Below are positions 35,971-42,771 of a stretch of 64,000 nt of DNA, one piece after another. Each line of letters opens with the position of its first letter. The stretch's first letter is position 1. A program made the translations under genes and the position numbers. Source of the DNA: an uncultured Bacilli bacterium (GTDB lineage: Bacteria > Bacillota_I > Bacilli_A > RFN20 > CAG-826); contig CALVUF010000005.1 of NCBI GenBank assembly GCA_944363525.1, positions 62,001 through 126,000 of the forward strand, in the 5' to 3' direction. The notes under the pieces are model-generated. The model was not told the DNA's origin. It was given only the letters and a program-made list of their open reading frames with translations, and ran no database searches.

Positions 35971-38172
35971 ATGCAGCTGCTCGAGGTTTTGCTTGAACTC
36001 CCGTCGTCTTCCCTCGACCGGCCTTTTGATTACCTTTGTTCCGATGAAGCGAAAGTCGGGGTCGGCTTTCGGGTCTTGATCCATTTCGGCCATAACCCCC
36101 GGCCCTTGGTCGGCTTCGTGACCAAGGTCACCCCGACGAACTTAAGCCAGAAAGAACTCGAGGAGACCAAAGGCTATCCCATCGCCTGGATCGATTCGGT
36201 CATCGATAACGAATGCTTGCTTAAGCCGGATCTTTTCACGTTGTCGGATGCCCTGGCCAGTTATTACCTTTGCCCGCGGATCAGCTTGTTGCAAGCGATG
36301 CTGCCATCTTCTCTAAAGCCAGCCAGAAGCTCGCTTAAGGGGCCGAAGGTCGCCTATGAGTCCTACGTCGAATTGCTTAAAGACGACGAAGAGGGTTTGA
36401 CCCCCAAGCAGATCGAGGCGGTGCGGTTATTGAAGGAAAGAAAACGCTGCAAAAAGAAGGAAGCCGGAAGCCCGTCAATCGTAAAAGCCCTCATAGATAA
36501 GGGGTATTTGCGCCTTTATCGGGAGGAAATCAACCGTTTGCAGCTAACCGAGGTCCCCCGAACCGAACCCTTCCCCTTAACTAGCGCCCAGCAAGCGGTT
36601 TTCGAAAAAATCACTTCTGGCGACAAGGAAGTTTATTTGCTTCAAGGGGTCACTGGGTCAGGGAAGACCGAGGTCTATCTCCATCTCTCCTCATTCTATT
36701 TGGAGCAAGGCAAAACCATCCTTATGTTGGTCCCGGAGATCTCGCTGACCCCGGCGATGGTTCGGTATTTCCTCTCCCGTTTTGGGAAGGAGGTGGCGAT
36801 CCTTCATTCTTCGCTGACCCCAGCCGAGAAATACGATGAATACCGCCGGATCGCTCGGGGCGAGGCCAAAGTGGTGGTCGGGGCACGAAGCGCCATCTTC
36901 GCGCCGCTCGACAACCTCGGCCTCATCATCCTCGACGAGGAGCACGTCGAATCGTATAAGCAAGACAGCGCCCCTTATTACCATGCCCGGGAGGTGGCCA
37001 TCCTCCGCGGCCGTCAAAGCGGGGCCAAGGTGGTTTTAGGCTCGGCTACCCCGACGCTAGAGACCCGGGCCAAAGCCGAGGCTGGGATTTATGGCTTTTG
37101 CCGGCTCAACCAACGAGTCAACGCCAAGCCCTTGCCGACCACTTCGATCATCGATTTATCGCGTCCTTCAAACCTATTGCCCTCGGCTCGGATGTTCTCT
37201 AAACAACTCGTCGAGAAGATCAAGGACCGGCTGAATAAAGGGGAGCAGACGATATTGCTCTTGAACCGGCGGGGCTATGCCTCCTATTCGACTTGCGGTT
37301 CTTGCGGCTATGTCTTCGTCTGCCCTAGCTGCGGTTCCCACTTAACCCTCCATAAGGCCGACATGATGCTCAAATGCCATCATTGCGGCTACGTCGCCCC
37401 CTTTGACGGGACCTGCCCCGAATGCCATTCGCCTAATATCGCCAGGGCCGGTTACGGGACCGAACGGGTGTGTAAGTATTTGGCTGAGTTCTTCCCTTCG
37501 GCCCGGATCGCCAGGCTAGACAGCGACGTCTCCCGGATCAAAGACGAGGCTGAGGACATCACTTTCAAGATGAAAGGCGGGGAATACGACATTCTCGTTG
37601 GGACCCAGATGATCGCCAAGGGCCATGACTTCCCTCTATGCACCTTAGTCGGGGTCTTGTTGGCTGACGTGGGTTTATCGATCCCATCGTTCCGCTCCGC
37701 CGAATCCTCCTTCTCCCTCATCGCCCAGGCGGTGGGGCGGGCCGGCCGGGGCCAGACTTTAGGGGAAGCCATCATCCAGACCTTCAACCCGACCAATCCG
37801 GCGATCACGCTTGGGGCCAAGCAGGATTACGACGCCTTCTTCCGGGTCGAGATGCAGAATCGGCGGGCTGGGAATTACCCGCCTTATAGCCATCTGGCCA
37901 ACCTCATCATCGGGGCGGCGAAGCAAGAGAAGGCCATCGAGGCCTCGGGGGCCATCAAGGCCGCCCTACGGAGCCAAAACTTCCCCGGGGTCGATTGTTT
38001 GGGGCCTTTGATCCCTTATTACGAGCTGGAAGGTGGGCTCTACCGGCGAGAGCTGCTCGTCAAGTTCAAAACCGCCGTCCTCATCAAGCCCTATCTCAAG
38101 AAATTGGTCGAGACCCTATCCGGCAAAGGCGGGGTCCGCCTCTACATCGACGTCGACCCGCTTGATTATTGA
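35971..38172 (+). CDS. priA: Primosomal replication protein N' (PriA helicase)
   Basis: A 733-residue superfamily 2 helicase that restarts stalled replication forks. The 3'-end-binding N-terminal domain, P loop GVTGSGKTEVY (about residue 226), 'LDEEHVESYKQ' (DEEH box), and the zinc ribbon with paired C-x2-C motifs ('CGSCGYVFVCPSCGSH' and 'CHHCGY...CPECH', about 446-490) are in normal order. The downstream def and fmt genes that often follow priA are absent here. Confidence 0.95.
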   Translation: MQLLEVLLELPSSSLDRPFDYLCSDEAKVGVGFRVLIHFGHNPRPLVGFVTKVTPTNLSQKELEETKGYPIAWIDSVIDNECLLKPDLFTLSDALASYYLCPRISLLQAMLPSSLKPARSSLKGPKVAYESYVELLKDDEEGLTPKQIEAVRLLKERKRCKKKEAGSPSIVKALIDKGYLRLYREEINRLQLTEVPRTEPFPLTSAQQAVFEKITSGDKEVYLLQGVTGSGKTEVYLHLSSFYLEQGKTILMLVPEISLTPAMVRYFLSRFGKEVAILHSSLTPAEKYDEYRRIARGEAKVVVGARSAIFAPLDNLGLIILDEEHVESYKQDSAPYYHAREVAILRGRQSGAKVVLGSATPTLETRAKAEAGIYGFCRLNQRVNAKPLPTTSIIDLSRPSNLLPSARMFSKQLVEKIKDRLNKGEQTILLLNRRGYASYSTCGSCGYVFVCPSCGSHLTLHKADMMLKCHHCGYVAPFDGTCPECHSPNIARAGYGTERVCKYLAEFFPSARIARLDSDVSRIKDEAEDITFKMKGGEYDILVGTQMIAKGHDFPLCTLVGVLLADVGLSIPSFRSAESSFSLIAQAVGRAGRGQTLGEAIIQTFNPTNPAITLGAKQDYDAFFRVEMQNRRAGNYPPYSHLANLIIGAAKQEKAIEASGAIKAALRSQNFPGVDCLGPLIPYYELEGGLYRRELLVKFKTAVLIKPYLKKLVETLSGKGGVRLYIDVDPLDY

Positions 38173-38223: not shown

Positions 38224-38763
38224 ATGATCACTATCTCCATCCTCGGCCTTGACCAATTCGTGGTCGGCCATTACTCCAAAGACCATACGGCCAAGCTGGC
38301 CGATATCTACGCCGTCCCCGAAGCGGCCATCAATTTCTTCGCCCCCAATTCGATGATCTTCCACGCCGGGGCCGAGCAGACGAGCTGGAATACCCTCGTC
38401 ATCGTCCGGGCGCCGAAGCAATTTAAGGAACGGGAGCACGAAGCCGCCCATTATCTGCTTGATACGTTGTCACTATTCTCGATTAACGTCGAATTGGAAT
38501 TCGAGTACTTCGATTCCAGTTCCCGTTATGAGAAGATCAACGACCAATACCCCCGTTACCTCGCCGAGGACAACATCAAGGAGGCCGACCTCTCCTTCTC
38601 CTATGGCGATGAGGAGGCAGAGGAGGACGAGGAGGGCGATCATGACCACGACGCCCCCAACCCGGCCGATCGGGCCGACCTCGATCCCAATGACCCCAAC
38701 CAGATATTCCTCGGCAACGCCTTCGCCGGCTTCGAAGAGGAATTGGCCAAGAAAAGCAAATAG
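38224..38763 (+). CDS. Acidic hypothetical protein at the def/fmt position
   Basis: A 179-residue soluble protein I do not recognise. The first 110 residues look like an alpha/beta fold ('MITISILGLDQFVVGHYSKDH', 'NTLVIVRAPKQF'), and the C-terminal 60 are very acidic with a His/Asp-rich run ('GDHDHDAPN'), which could bind metal or be disordered. It opens the operon that continues with the RsmB-like gene 14 bases downstream, the place often held by def and fmt. Function unknown. Confidence 0.8.
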   Translation: MITISILGLDQFVVGHYSKDHTAKLADIYAVPEAAINFFAPNSMIFHAGAEQTSWNTLVIVRAPKQFKEREHEAAHYLLDTLSLFSINVELEFEYFDSSSRYEKINDQYPRYLAEDNIKEADLSFSYGDEEAEEDEEGDHDHDAPNPADRADLDPNDPNQIFLGNAFAGFEEELAKKSK

Positions 38764-38777
38764 GAGGATTTCACCCC

Positions 38778-40103
38778 ATGCGTAAAGAATTCGAATTGGC
38801 TTTGCAGATCCTGCATAGCGTCACAGCCGACCACCTCTACTTCGGCGAGGCTTTGAAGGCGATGTTCCAGAAAAACATCGAACTCCGTCCCCTCCGGAAG
38901 GAAGTGGCGGGCTTGGTTGGCTGCGAACTCCGTCATGACATCTTGTTCACCAAGCTCTTCGGCTCGATCGAAGGATTAGAGGACGCCGACAAGGAACTCC
39001 TATCTTTGGTTTTGGCCAATGATTTTTATTTCCGTCATTTCCCGCAAGAAGAAATCGACGCCGAGTTCAAGGAAGCCATCGGGGAAGAGAAATTCGCCCT
39101 CTGCCTCCCTTTATTGGAAAAAGCCGGCCATGCCGAGTCCTATATCCCGGAAGGCATCGACCATTCCTCGCTTGAATATCTTTCCCTCCGTTATAACGTT
39201 CCCATTTGGGCTTTGAAGATCATGCACCATTTCGGTTATTCGAATACGTACAAGACCATCAAGCGGTTCGCCCGGCCCTATCAGCCTTATGTGCGGCTCC
39301 GCTCGGTCCCGGAGGCCGACGAACTTCGGAACAATCCCGATTTCGCCGCCACTTCGGTTCCTGATGTCTATGCCTATTCGGGCAAAGCGGCTTTAAGGAC
39401 CTATGAGCAAATCAAAGACCGCCACGCCTTCGAGATCCGCCCGATCGTCAAGAAACTATTAGACGACAACAAAGTCGTCGCCCCGGCCTCGGTCGTCCTA
39501 TATTGCGGGAAGTCCAATGGCGGGGCCGATAAGGAAGTCATCTCCTCTTACCTAAACGAGGTCCCGGTCAACATCGCCACCCCGAACGAGGACGATCTAT
39601 TGGAGGCCAAGCGGCTCATCAAGCAACTAGGGCTCCGCAACATCAACCTCTTCTCGGTCGCCGACCCGACCTCGATGGAAGCCTATATCTCCTGCAAGGC
39701 CGAATTGGTGTTCTGCCTCCCGGAATCGACTGGCTTCGACGCCGTCCCGACCACCCCGGATTTCTTCCTCCATTACGACAAGGAGAAGATGGACGAGATC
39801 ATCGCTAATCAAGCCAAAGCCTTAGAAGGCTGCGCCTCCTACGTCGAAGAGGGCGGGACCCTCATCTATTGCGTCCTCACCATCTCGAAGAAAGAAGGCC
39901 ATAACACCGTCGCCGAATTCCTCTCTAAGCATCCAGAATTCACCCTCGTCGAGGAGAAGCAGCACTTCCCCTATGACGAATATGGCTGCGCCGCCTATTA
40001 CGCTAAACTCTCGCTCGGGCCCAAAGTCGCCTCGATCGCCGTTCCTTTCGGCGAGATGAACGCCTTATCCACTGAGCCCGTCCACTGCGCTTCCGCCAAG
40101 TAG
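38778..40103 (+). CDS. RsmB-like protein lacking both catalytic cysteines
   Basis: A 441-residue protein with the layout of 16S rRNA m5C967 methyltransferase RsmB: a NusB-like N-terminal domain (about 1-135), a linker with 'YNVPIWALKIMHHFGY', and a Rossmann-type C-terminal domain. Position just before rlmN supports this. However, motif I (DLCAAPGGK) is reduced to 'LYCGKSNGGADKE', motif IV (DAPCSG) reads C-L-P-E-S-T (residues 313-318), and motif VI (YSTCTI) reads Y-C-V-L-T-I (Leu367). Both cysteines needed for methyl transfer and product release are gone, so it is probably not a methyltransferase; an RNA-binding or ribosome-assembly role is possible. AGGAGG precedes the start. Confidence 0.85.
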   Translation: MRKEFELALQILHSVTADHLYFGEALKAMFQKNIELRPLRKEVAGLVGCELRHDILFTKLFGSIEGLEDADKELLSLVLANDFYFRHFPQEEIDAEFKEAIGEEKFALCLPLLEKAGHAESYIPEGIDHSSLEYLSLRYNVPIWALKIMHHFGYSNTYKTIKRFARPYQPYVRLRSVPEADELRNNPDFAATSVPDVYAYSGKAALRTYEQIKDRHAFEIRPIVKKLLDDNKVVAPASVVLYCGKSNGGADKEVISSYLNEVPVNIATPNEDDLLEAKRLIKQLGLRNINLFSVADPTSMEAYISCKAELVFCLPESTGFDAVPTTPDFFLHYDKEKMDEIIANQAKALEGCASYVEEGGTLIYCVLTISKKEGHNTVAEFLSKHPEFTLVEEKQHFPYDEYGCAAYYAKLSLGPKVASIAVPFGEMNALSTEPVHCASAK

Positions 40104-40112
40104 GAGGAATGA

Positions 40113-41156
40113 ATGGAAAACCTCCTCGGCTATTCCCTTGAAAGGATGACCGACTGCTTCGTCGCCCGGGGCCAAAGCAAGTTCCGGGCCAAGCAGGTTT
40201 TCGGCTGGATATACGGCAAAGGGGTCCTCGATTTCGACAAGATGACCGATGTCTCGCTTTCTTTCCGCGAGGAGTTGAAGCGGGACTTTTGCCTATCCCT
40301 TCCCTCCATTATCGCTAAGCAGGTGGCAAGCGACGGCACCGTCAAGCTTTTGCTCCGATTAGAAGACGGGGCCAAGGTCGAGGAAGTCATGATGCCTTAC
40401 GACTATGGGTGTCCCATCTGCGTCTCTAGCGAAGTCGGCTGCTCGATGGGGTGCGCTTTCTGCGCCTCCGGGTTGCTCAAGAAAGAAAGAGGATTGACCA
40501 GCGCCGAAATGGTAGGGCAGCTTTTGGTCATGAATCAGGTCCTTTCCGAATATGGCCTTCGGGTCACCCACATCAACGTCATGGGGACCGGGGAGCCGTT
40601 CGATAATTACGATAACGTGATGGAATTCATCCGGATCGCCAATTGCCAGGCTGGCCTTGCCATCGGGGCCCGCCATATCACCGTCTCGACCTGCGGCTTG
40701 CCCGAGGGGATCAGGCGGTATGGGAAAGAAGGGCTGCAGACCAATCTCGCCCTCTCCCTCCACGCCCCGAACGATAAAATCCGGAATAAGATCATGCCGG
40801 TCTCGCTGAAATACCCGATGAAAGAGCTGATCGCCGCGATCAAGGATTACCTTTCGACTTCCGGGAGGCGGGTCACCTTCGAATACATCCTTTTGTCTGG
40901 GGTCAACGATACTCTGGAATGCGCCGACGAATTGGCCCGTCTAATCCGGGATAATGACTTATTCGCCTACGTCAACCTCATCCCCTATAACGAAGTGAAG
41001 GAGATGAAATGGAAACGCTCCTCCAAAAGTAGCGTTTCCGCTTTCCATAACGCCTTGCTTAAGAAAGGGATCAACGCCACGGTCAGAAAGGAATTCGGGG
41101 GCGACATCGACGCCGCCTGCGGCCAACTCCGGGTCAAATACGAGAAGCAACAATGA
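40113..41156 (+). CDS. rlmN: Dual-specificity 23S rRNA/tRNA adenine-C2 methyltransferase RlmN
   Basis: A 347-residue radical SAM enzyme that methylates A2503 of 23S rRNA and A37 of some tRNAs. The iron-sulfur cysteines C-x3-C-x2-C are at 110, 114 and 117 ('CSMGCAFC'), 'VMGTGEPFDNYDNV' and 'SLHAPND' are conserved, and the second, methyl-carrying Cys lies in 'DIDAACGQL' near the C terminus. TAGGAGGAATG precedes the start; the end overlaps the phosphatase gene by 4 bases. Confidence 0.95.
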   Translation: MENLLGYSLERMTDCFVARGQSKFRAKQVFGWIYGKGVLDFDKMTDVSLSFREELKRDFCLSLPSIIAKQVASDGTVKLLLRLEDGAKVEEVMMPYDYGCPICVSSEVGCSMGCAFCASGLLKKERGLTSAEMVGQLLVMNQVLSEYGLRVTHINVMGTGEPFDNYDNVMEFIRIANCQAGLAIGARHITVSTCGLPEGIRRYGKEGLQTNLALSLHAPNDKIRNKIMPVSLKYPMKELIAAIKDYLSTSGRRVTFEYILLSGVNDTLECADELARLIRDNDLFAYVNLIPYNEVKEMKWKRSSKSSVSAFHNALLKKGINATVRKEFGGDIDAACGQLRVKYEKQQ

Positions 41157-41899
41157 AACAGTACAAAGGGGCCTTTGAATCGAAAACCGACGTCGGGAGA
41201 GTCCGAATCGCCAACGAGGACCAAGCGGCCAGCCTCACCAATAGTCAGGGCGAGATATTTCTCTTAGTCTGCGATGGGATGGGTGGCCAAAACAAAGGCG
41301 ACTGCGCCTCCAAACTGGCCCGCGACTATTTAGTTGAGGCCTTCACCAAGAAGCCGAAACTCCCGTCCTTTTTGCTGAAGATGTGGCTCTCGCGAATCAT
41401 CAAAGGGGCCAATAAGCTCATCTATAGCGAAGCCAACCATAACGAGCGTTATCACGATATGGGCACCACTTGCTGCCTCGCTTTGATAAGCGGCGAGAAA
41501 CTATTCATCGCCAATGTCGGGGATTCGCGGGCCTATTGGCTCAAAGGCCATGAATTGACCCGCCTTTCCAACGACCAAACCTACGTCGATTACCTTTACC
41601 GGACCGGCAAGATCAGCTTCGAGGAGACTTCGAAGCGCGAAGACCGGCACGTCCTGCTCAACGCTTTAGGCATCTATCCTTCCTCCTCGGCCGAGATCGA
41701 GGTTAAGCCCTATGCGGGCGAAGCGGTTTTGGTCTGCTCCGATGGCTTATACAATAACCTCCCCGAATCGGAGATCCGGGCGATCCTTTCCGGCGACGAA
41801 AGGCCGGATGAGAAAGTCGCCTCCCTCATCGAGGAAGCCAACGCCTCCGGGGGTTCGGATAACATCGCCATCGCCTATTTCGAGGCTTGCAAATCATGA
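41153..41899 (+). CDS. PP2C-type Ser/Thr protein phosphatase
   Basis: A 248-residue PPM-family phosphatase. Metal-binding motifs are intact: 'RIANEDQA', 'LLVCDGMGGQNKG', 'FIANVGDSRAYW', 'VLVCSDGLYNNL' and 'GGSDNIAIAY'. It removes phosphate from Ser/Thr, most likely opposing the kinase encoded by the next, overlapping gene, as PrpC/Stp do for PrkC in other Firmicutes. Cytosolic, no membrane segment. Confidence 0.94.
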   Translation: MKQYKGAFESKTDVGRVRIANEDQAASLTNSQGEIFLLVCDGMGGQNKGDCASKLARDYLVEAFTKKPKLPSFLLKMWLSRIIKGANKLIYSEANHNERYHDMGTTCCLALISGEKLFIANVGDSRAYWLKGHELTRLSNDQTYVDYLYRTGKISFEETSKREDRHVLLNALGIYPSSSAEIEVKPYAGEAVLVCSDGLYNNLPESEIRAILSGDERPDEKVASLIEEANASGGSDNIAIAYFEACKS

Positions 41900-42771
41900 T
41901 CAAGATCGGCGATCGGATCGATTCCCGTTATCGGATAACCTCCCGCATCGCCTCCGGCGGCATGGCCGATATCTACGAGGCCAACGACCTCATCTATCGG
42001 CGGATCGTCTCGTTGAAGGTCATGAAGGAAGAATTATTGAAGGACCCGGTCAATTTGGCCCGGTTCAACAATGAGACGGCGGCCGCCGCCAGTTTGAACC
42101 ACCCCAATATCGTCAAGGTCTATGGCCGGGGGTTCGTCGATAACCGGCCCTATATGGCCAATGAATACATCAAAGGGCAGACGTTAAGGGATAAGCTTAA
42201 TTTCTCGATGTCGCTTTCGCTGACCGACGCCTGCGACGTCATGCTGCAATTAACCGCCGGGATCGACTATATCCATCGGCACGGGATCATCCATCGCGAC
42301 ATCAAGCCCGATAACCTGTTCTATCTAAGCGATGGGACCATCAAGATCAGCGACTTCGGCATCGCCGCGCCCATCGGCACCCCGGAGGAAGGGGACGCGA
42401 TTCAAGGGACCATCTATTACTGCGCCCCCGAGGTTCTAACCGGGGCCCCGGCCAGTATCGCTAATGACATTTACTCGATGGGGGTCGTCTTCTATGAATG
42501 TCTGACCGGGCAAGTGCCCTTTGACGGGGAGACGTTAGAGGAAGTGGCCTTAAAGCAAATCAAGAAACGGTTCCCCGAACCGAGCAAATTGGTTCCCTCT
42601 TTGCCTAAATCGATCGAGTGGATCATCATCACCGCCTGCCGGAAGCGCCCCGAGGAGCGTTACCTCACGTCCTCGGCGATGCATGAGGCGATACTCGAGG
42701 CAATGAAGGACAAAGAGAGTTTTCGGGGTGAAAGGAGAGGTCTGCTGTCGCGGATCTTCGGCTTCAAATGA
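41896..42771 (+). CDS. Soluble Hanks-type Ser/Thr kinase without PASTA domains
   Basis: ATG at 41896 overlaps the phosphatase stop and is preferred over TTG at 41887. The 291-residue protein is a complete kinase domain: Gly loop 'IASGGMADIYEA', 'VSLKVMKEE' Lys, 'HRDIKPDN' catalytic loop, 'ISDFGIA' and 'GTIYYCAPEV'. It ends about 20 residues after the fold in a basic tail, with no membrane helix and no PASTA repeats, unlike PrkC/PknB of most Firmicutes, so it cannot sense peptidoglycan directly. The rsgA gene usually found next is missing; rpe follows by overlap. Confidence 0.93.
   Translation: MIKIGDRIDSRYRITSRIASGGMADIYEANDLIYRRIVSLKVMKEELLKDPVNLARFNNETAAAASLNHPNIVKVYGRGFVDNRPYMANEYIKGQTLRDKLNFSMSLSLTDACDVMLQLTAGIDYIHRHGIIHRDIKPDNLFYLSDGTIKISDFGIAAPIGTPEEGDAIQGTIYYCAPEVLTGAPASIANDIYSMGVVFYECLTGQVPFDGETLEEVALKQIKKRFPEPSKLVPSLPKSIEWIIITACRKRPEERYLTSSAMHEAILEAMKDKESFRGERRGLLSRIFGFK

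Follow-up and report, generated by a model that had tools for sequence, protein, structure and literature searches.

A catalytically dead RsmB orthologue retained across three families of Bacilli, with a co-inherited DUF1904-like gene upstream

The locus and its genes

We analysed a stretch of 64,000 nucleotides from the genome of an uncultured Bacilli bacterium (the window), which encodes an RsmB-family protein that has lost its catalytic motifs. We refer to this protein as RsmBx and to the product of the gene directly upstream as X179. The genes and features of the locus, in window positions, are:

35971..38172, plus strand: priA, conserved neighbour upstream
38224..38763, plus strand: X179, a DUF1904/tautomerase-fold protein of 179 aa without Pro-1, co-inherited with RsmBx
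38762..38767, plus strand: AGGAGG ribosome-binding site, overlapping the X179 stop codon, with the ATG 10 nt further on
38778..40103, plus strand: RsmBx, catalytically dead RsmB orthologue, 441 aa, ATG start
38778..39167, plus strand: NusB-like N-terminal domain of RsmBx, residues ~1-130 (full-length alignment to 1sqf)
39498..39527, plus strand: motif I (SAM-binding) of RsmBx, eroded, residues 241-250
39711..39740, plus strand: motif IV of RsmBx, eroded, residues 312-321; catalytic Cys column occupied by Ser317
39867..39881, plus strand: motif VI of RsmBx, eroded, residues 364-368, Y-C-V-L-T; nucleophile column occupied by Leu367
40113..41156, plus strand: rlmN, conserved neighbour downstream of rsmB

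The gene has kept its operon place, as a sequence-only reading of this DNA had proposed: it lies beside rlmN, with priA upstream, in the order priA-rsmB-rlmN-stp-prkC-rpe that it shares with RsmB. At intact rsmB loci, priA is mostly upstream and stp, prkC, and rpe are mostly downstream; unlike these, the locus studied here has one gene more, X179, which separates priA from the RsmBx gene. The same reading had pointed to a strong ribosome site, which is the AGGAGG listed above, and from its overlap with the X179 stop codon we consider translational coupling of X179 and RsmBx likely. Further along, the window also encodes a PrkC-like kinase (41887-42771, 294 aa) that consists of the kinase domain alone, PASTA repeats being absent in a Pfam scan.

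Identity and fold of RsmBx

RsmB (Fmu/Sun) is the methyltransferase that makes m5C967 in 16S rRNA. RsmBx is a positional orthologue of this enzyme, and is recognizable as such over its whole length. The NCBIfam RsmB model matched residues 6-395 (E=5.8e-16) at 58.3 bits, which does not reach the equivalog cut-off of 319, and the Pfam RsmB/F match was weak (E=1.3e-5). The protein is nevertheless nearer to RsmB than to RsmF, the methyltransferase for m5C1407 in 16S rRNA, for which the best model scored 22.6 bits. A profile built from the RsmBx family aligned with E. coli Fmu/RsmB (PDB 1sqf) over positions 6-414 (E=1.9e-13), starting in the NusB-like domain and running through to the end, and the AlphaFold model (pLDDT 90.6) had 1sqf as its best PDB fold match, again at full length (439 columns, E=7.5e-22). 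The RsmB fold including the N-terminal NusB-like domain is thus present, and the earlier view that domain and length have been kept holds by both profile and fold.

RsmBx was the sole PF01189 match found in the window's genome assembly, and no RsmF-type protein was found in assembly G000 (94.9% complete). A genome whose RsmBx is 98% identical to that of G000 (G028) has an intact RsmF-type protein, and the absence in G000 is either an assembly gap or a recent loss.

Selective loss of the SAM and catalytic motifs

We scored motif columns in 100 distinct RsmBx orthologues, 91 of them at less than 95% identity, which come from three families within a single order of Bacilli. The reference was a set of 29 intact RsmB, drawn from other orders and from sister families. 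The loss of both catalytic cysteines, first noticed from the window alone, is borne out by this alignment. In motif IV, RsmBx reads L-P-E-S-T-G where RsmB has DAPCSG, placing Ser317 in the cysteine column, and in motif VI it reads Y-C-V-L-T where RsmB has YSTCT, placing Leu367 in the nucleophile column; C313 and C365, visible in these motifs, fall outside the catalytic columns. The SAM loop, described earlier as eroded, has lost its motif, with LYCGKSNGGA where RsmB has DxCAAPGxK. Across the family, the motif VI nucleophile is found in 0/100 orthologues and a cysteine at the motif IV column in just 5, and both cysteines are present in 29/29 intact RsmB. More generally, SAM-binding and catalytic columns are conserved at 93-100% in intact RsmB and at 0-13% in the RsmBx family, in which the structural columns P142, G360, Y364, T368, and E373, also shared with RsmB, are conserved at 97-99%. 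Since catalytic and SAM columns were lost as structural columns stayed, the erosion is selective, and its conservation over 100 distinct sequences excludes chance.

These data bear on two alternatives. It is very improbable that RsmBx retains methyltransferase activity through unusual residues: the five orthologues with a motif IV cysteine would fit such an enzyme, but the SAM motif and the motif VI nucleophile are gone in 100/100, the replacements vary (Y, F, P, L, N) and so do not form a substituted active site, and the U968 pattern of the 16S rRNA (see below) is that of genomes without RsmB. A second alternative, that RsmBx is kept by an old moonlighting contact of RsmB, for instance one between the NusB-like domain and translation or transcription factors, and has no direct role on rRNA, would account for the retention of that domain and for the conservation of R37, R40, R52, and H53 in the genus; we consider it quite unlikely, as the C-terminal domain has been maintained just as well (G360, Y364, T368, and E373 at 97-99%).

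Distribution, origin, and selection

All 30 of the other genomes in the window's genus have an RsmBx orthologue, and the motifs are lost in 29/29 that are readable whole (motif scoring left out the copy in G008, whose two parts lie on separate contigs). Dead RsmB is also found in the other sampled genera of the same family (f1) and in families f3 and f5, and we found no earlier description of it in the literature searched, which left out most subscription journals. An intact RsmB adjoining rlmN is found in families f2, f6, f7, and f8 of this order and elsewhere in the class, in other orders. No orthologue with intact motifs occurs in the three families, intact RsmB being confined to other families, and a merely local loss is therefore rejected; the motif loss is much broader than the sequence-only reading had noted.

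In a species tree from four neighbouring markers, f1, f3, and f5 form one clade (support 100/99), and in the RsmB gene tree, made by a quick method and containing long branches, a single branch parts dead from intact forms. The simplest account, supported by both trees, is that catalysis was lost once, in the common ancestor of the three families; several independent losses would be unneeded. A clade that also joins f4 to these families was not rejected (p-AU 0.21).

Comparing RsmBx of the window with its two nearest relatives gave dN/dS of 0.085 and 0.115. In most other close pairs the ratio was 0.03-0.14, similar to priA. Higher ratios came from two more distant pairs, 0.21 in one and 0.49 in the other, which has 49% identity and a near-saturated dS; in one pair dS was saturated. 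Values so close to those of neighbouring housekeeping genes indicate that this is not a decaying gene: RsmBx is retained as a folded protein under purifying selection. That it should be a decaying pseudogene, its frame intact by chance, is hardly credible. Its loss in a few members would agree with decay, but the dN/dS of most pairs refutes it, as do frames that stay open over three families and a single deep origin. Some members can dispense with RsmBx: rsmB is deleted in G035, which keeps X179, RsmBx was not found in G060, where X179 is present, and family f4 has no rsmB.

Conserved loss together with purifying selection was what the earlier reading had expected of a repurposed protein, and both are seen; the non-enzymatic job that it proposed is strongly supported, at the level of sequence, by clade-wide motif loss and selection. 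RsmBx is a clade-wide pseudoenzyme derived from a bacterial rRNA methyltransferase, and roughly a hundred of the species sampled carry it, within a large group that lives mostly in gut and rumen.

A signature in helix 31 of 16S rRNA

Helix 31 offers a view of the substrate, which, like X179, the earlier reading had missed. Positions follow E. coli numbering, verified against an annotated 16S gene. Helices were counted if they had ACGCG at 969-973, which excludes more divergent ones, and RsmB was scored as intact where a genome with a readable helix 31 had a full-length match to profile A5. Most MAGs have no 16S gene. In the class sample, genomes with full-length intact RsmB have C967-A968 in 40/40 cases. 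Genomes without a full-length RsmB match have U968 in 23/25 and C967 in just 6/25. Verified RsmBx genomes have U968 in 16/19 and C967 in 19/19. At the level of genomes, which are not independent, U968 separates RsmBx from intact-RsmB genomes (Fisher 9e-12); counted per family, U968 is found in 7/9 families without active RsmB versus 0/9 with it (p=0.002). Because RsmBx genomes share U968 with RsmB-less ones, the pattern supports the view that m5C967 has been lost in the RsmBx clade. The signature is not strict, as A968 is kept in some RsmBx genomes (G137 of genus g29, G032 of g3, and G030). As a relationship between base 968 and the state of RsmB, it offers a means of predicting m5C967 loss from sequence alone.

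The second half of the signature concerns C967 itself. Its retention with RsmBx differs from RsmB-less genomes (1.6e-7, genome-level, the RsmBx genomes being one clade) and suggests continued binding by RsmBx. As RsmBx genomes form one clade, retention is no proof of such binding; f4 (G051), without rsmB, also keeps C967, and the retention may reflect shared ancestry. We also considered whether the target had been lost first and the enzyme had decayed in consequence, which is rejected since every RsmBx genome sampled has C967, and whether RsmD, which makes m2G966 at the adjacent base, had been lost, of which there is no sign (PF03602 matches in 61/61 genomes, a family that catches other methyltransferases too).

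The helix also bears on a Trm6/Trm61-like arrangement, in which RsmBx would be a subunit without catalysis of its own and would offer rRNA to a second methyltransferase, for instance RsmF. Most relatives have an intact RsmF-type protein that could fill this place, but RsmBx is kept where no intact RsmB/F was found at all, for example in G022 (97% complete) and G032 (96%), and the U968 of the clade points to m5C967 loss; we regard this arrangement as unlikely.

Two other observations on helix 31 were made. In the window's genus (L105, L103, L106) and in genus g33, helix 31 has A968U plus A974G and G976A (GCTACGCGGAAAACC), and the latter two changes would mismatch 967F-type 16S primers. In families f16, f17, f19, f26, and f27 of the class sample, from which full-length RsmB is absent, 16S position 967 is mostly A, with U968, possibly a general signature of RsmB loss.

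X179, the co-inherited gene

The gene between priA and dead rsmB encodes a DUF1904/tautomerase-fold protein. Pfam PF08921 (DUF1904) is matched by 31/37 X179 homologues (best E=6.2e-9), the window's own copy scoring 14.5 bits, under the curated 24.1, and the model of X179 has the tautomerase beta-alpha-beta fold, with a DUF1904 structure, 4m1a, as top PDB match (E=6e-7). Active tautomerases use a catalytic Pro-1. X179 shares the fold of the superfamily (PDB 4m1a, 1u9d), but Pro-1 is absent in 37/37 homologues, in which the second residue is Ile or Val, and its tail is acidic, often His/Cys-rich. Many homologues, and weak relatives in f4, carry long C-terminal tails rich in His, Cys, and Asp that look metal-binding (L211:5698-6381, L214-L216, L175:5396-6001); the window's X179 has an acidic tail instead. 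A conserved tail motif as the docking site for RsmBx is unsupported, as G035 kept the motif after losing rsmB.

X179 is present in every RsmBx genome with a readable upstream region (adjacency is unreadable in G029, at a contig end, and in G040, with the genes on different contigs). It was found in 0/9 genomes of the order with intact rsmB. In the class-wide sample it occurs in 39 f1 and f3 genomes, all with RsmBx, and in 0/257 others; at the corresponding site, f4 has a weak relative. RsmBx is never seen without X179, and X179 persists without RsmBx in G035 and G060. Since both arise on about the same stem, this co-occurrence amounts to about one event plus asymmetric loss, not many. In L171 (CASEWT010000020.1, 80-1984) the two read as one 635-aa ORF. 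They are separate genes in the near-identical L176, and the fusion, which could be an assembly error, is weak support for the pair.

This linkage could also mean that the two proteins work as a complex outside ribosome assembly, in a new function for which RsmBx is only a scaffold. In favour of such a complex are the lack of any case of RsmBx seen without X179, the novelty of X179 at this locus in the clade, the one natural fusion ORF, and the survival of X179 after RsmBx loss, which indicates a function of its own. Set against these are the C967 kept with RsmBx, the conservation of the RsmB structural core and of the site adjoining rlmN, and the lack of any hint of another process in either fold, and so we see it as possible, if rather doubtful.

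A proposed role in 30S assembly

Our preferred reading is that RsmBx, having lost SAM binding and both catalytic cysteines, is now a catalysis-free 30S assembly factor, probably together with X179; we give it a probability of about 0.5. The placement in ribosome assembly or translation is one that we infer from known RsmB biology and from C967 retention. The E. coli enzyme works on an early 30S intermediate to which S19 has yet to be added, and deletion of rsmB leads to accumulation of the 17S precursor (PMC7056703). Like RsmB in early 30S assembly, RsmBx would still bind nascent 16S rRNA around helix 31, and would be an assembly chaperone or checkpoint there, leaving C967 unmethylated and probably acting in physical partnership with the X179 encoded just upstream. 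Most economically, RsmBx would have kept the binding and assembly share of RsmB's work and dropped the chemistry. A more specific version, which we put forward tentatively and hold to be somewhat less probable, is a dedicated rRNA-assembly pseudoenzyme in which RsmB has turned from writer into helix 31 reader or chaperone, paired with a dead tautomerase-fold protein, and in which the surroundings of the 16S target have co-evolved, with A968 released and C967 kept.

Two mitochondrial proteins offer parallels. NSUN4 has an assembly role that is separable from methylation and a partner, MTERF4 (PMC3916286), and so resembles RsmBx in combining an m5C methyltransferase fold with a separable assembly function and a partner protein; unlike RsmBx, NSUN4 is still an active enzyme, and MTERF4 is unrelated to DUF1904. 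METTL15 serves small-subunit biogenesis of the mitoribosome with catalysis dispensable (PMC11197891), so that, as proposed here, the protein itself is chaperone-like and the mark dispensable. METTL15 is an m4C enzyme and naturally active, whereas RsmBx is dead in nature.

For X179, the association is a first clue to the function of a DUF1904 protein, from a family that a single paper mentions in the literature searched. For RsmB, it touches on the long-standing question of whether the importance of rRNA methyltransferases lies in the modification itself or in their binding in assembly. In three families of Bacilli, the mark appears to have gone in the course of evolution and the protein to have stayed, and the sister families with an active enzyme are natural controls.
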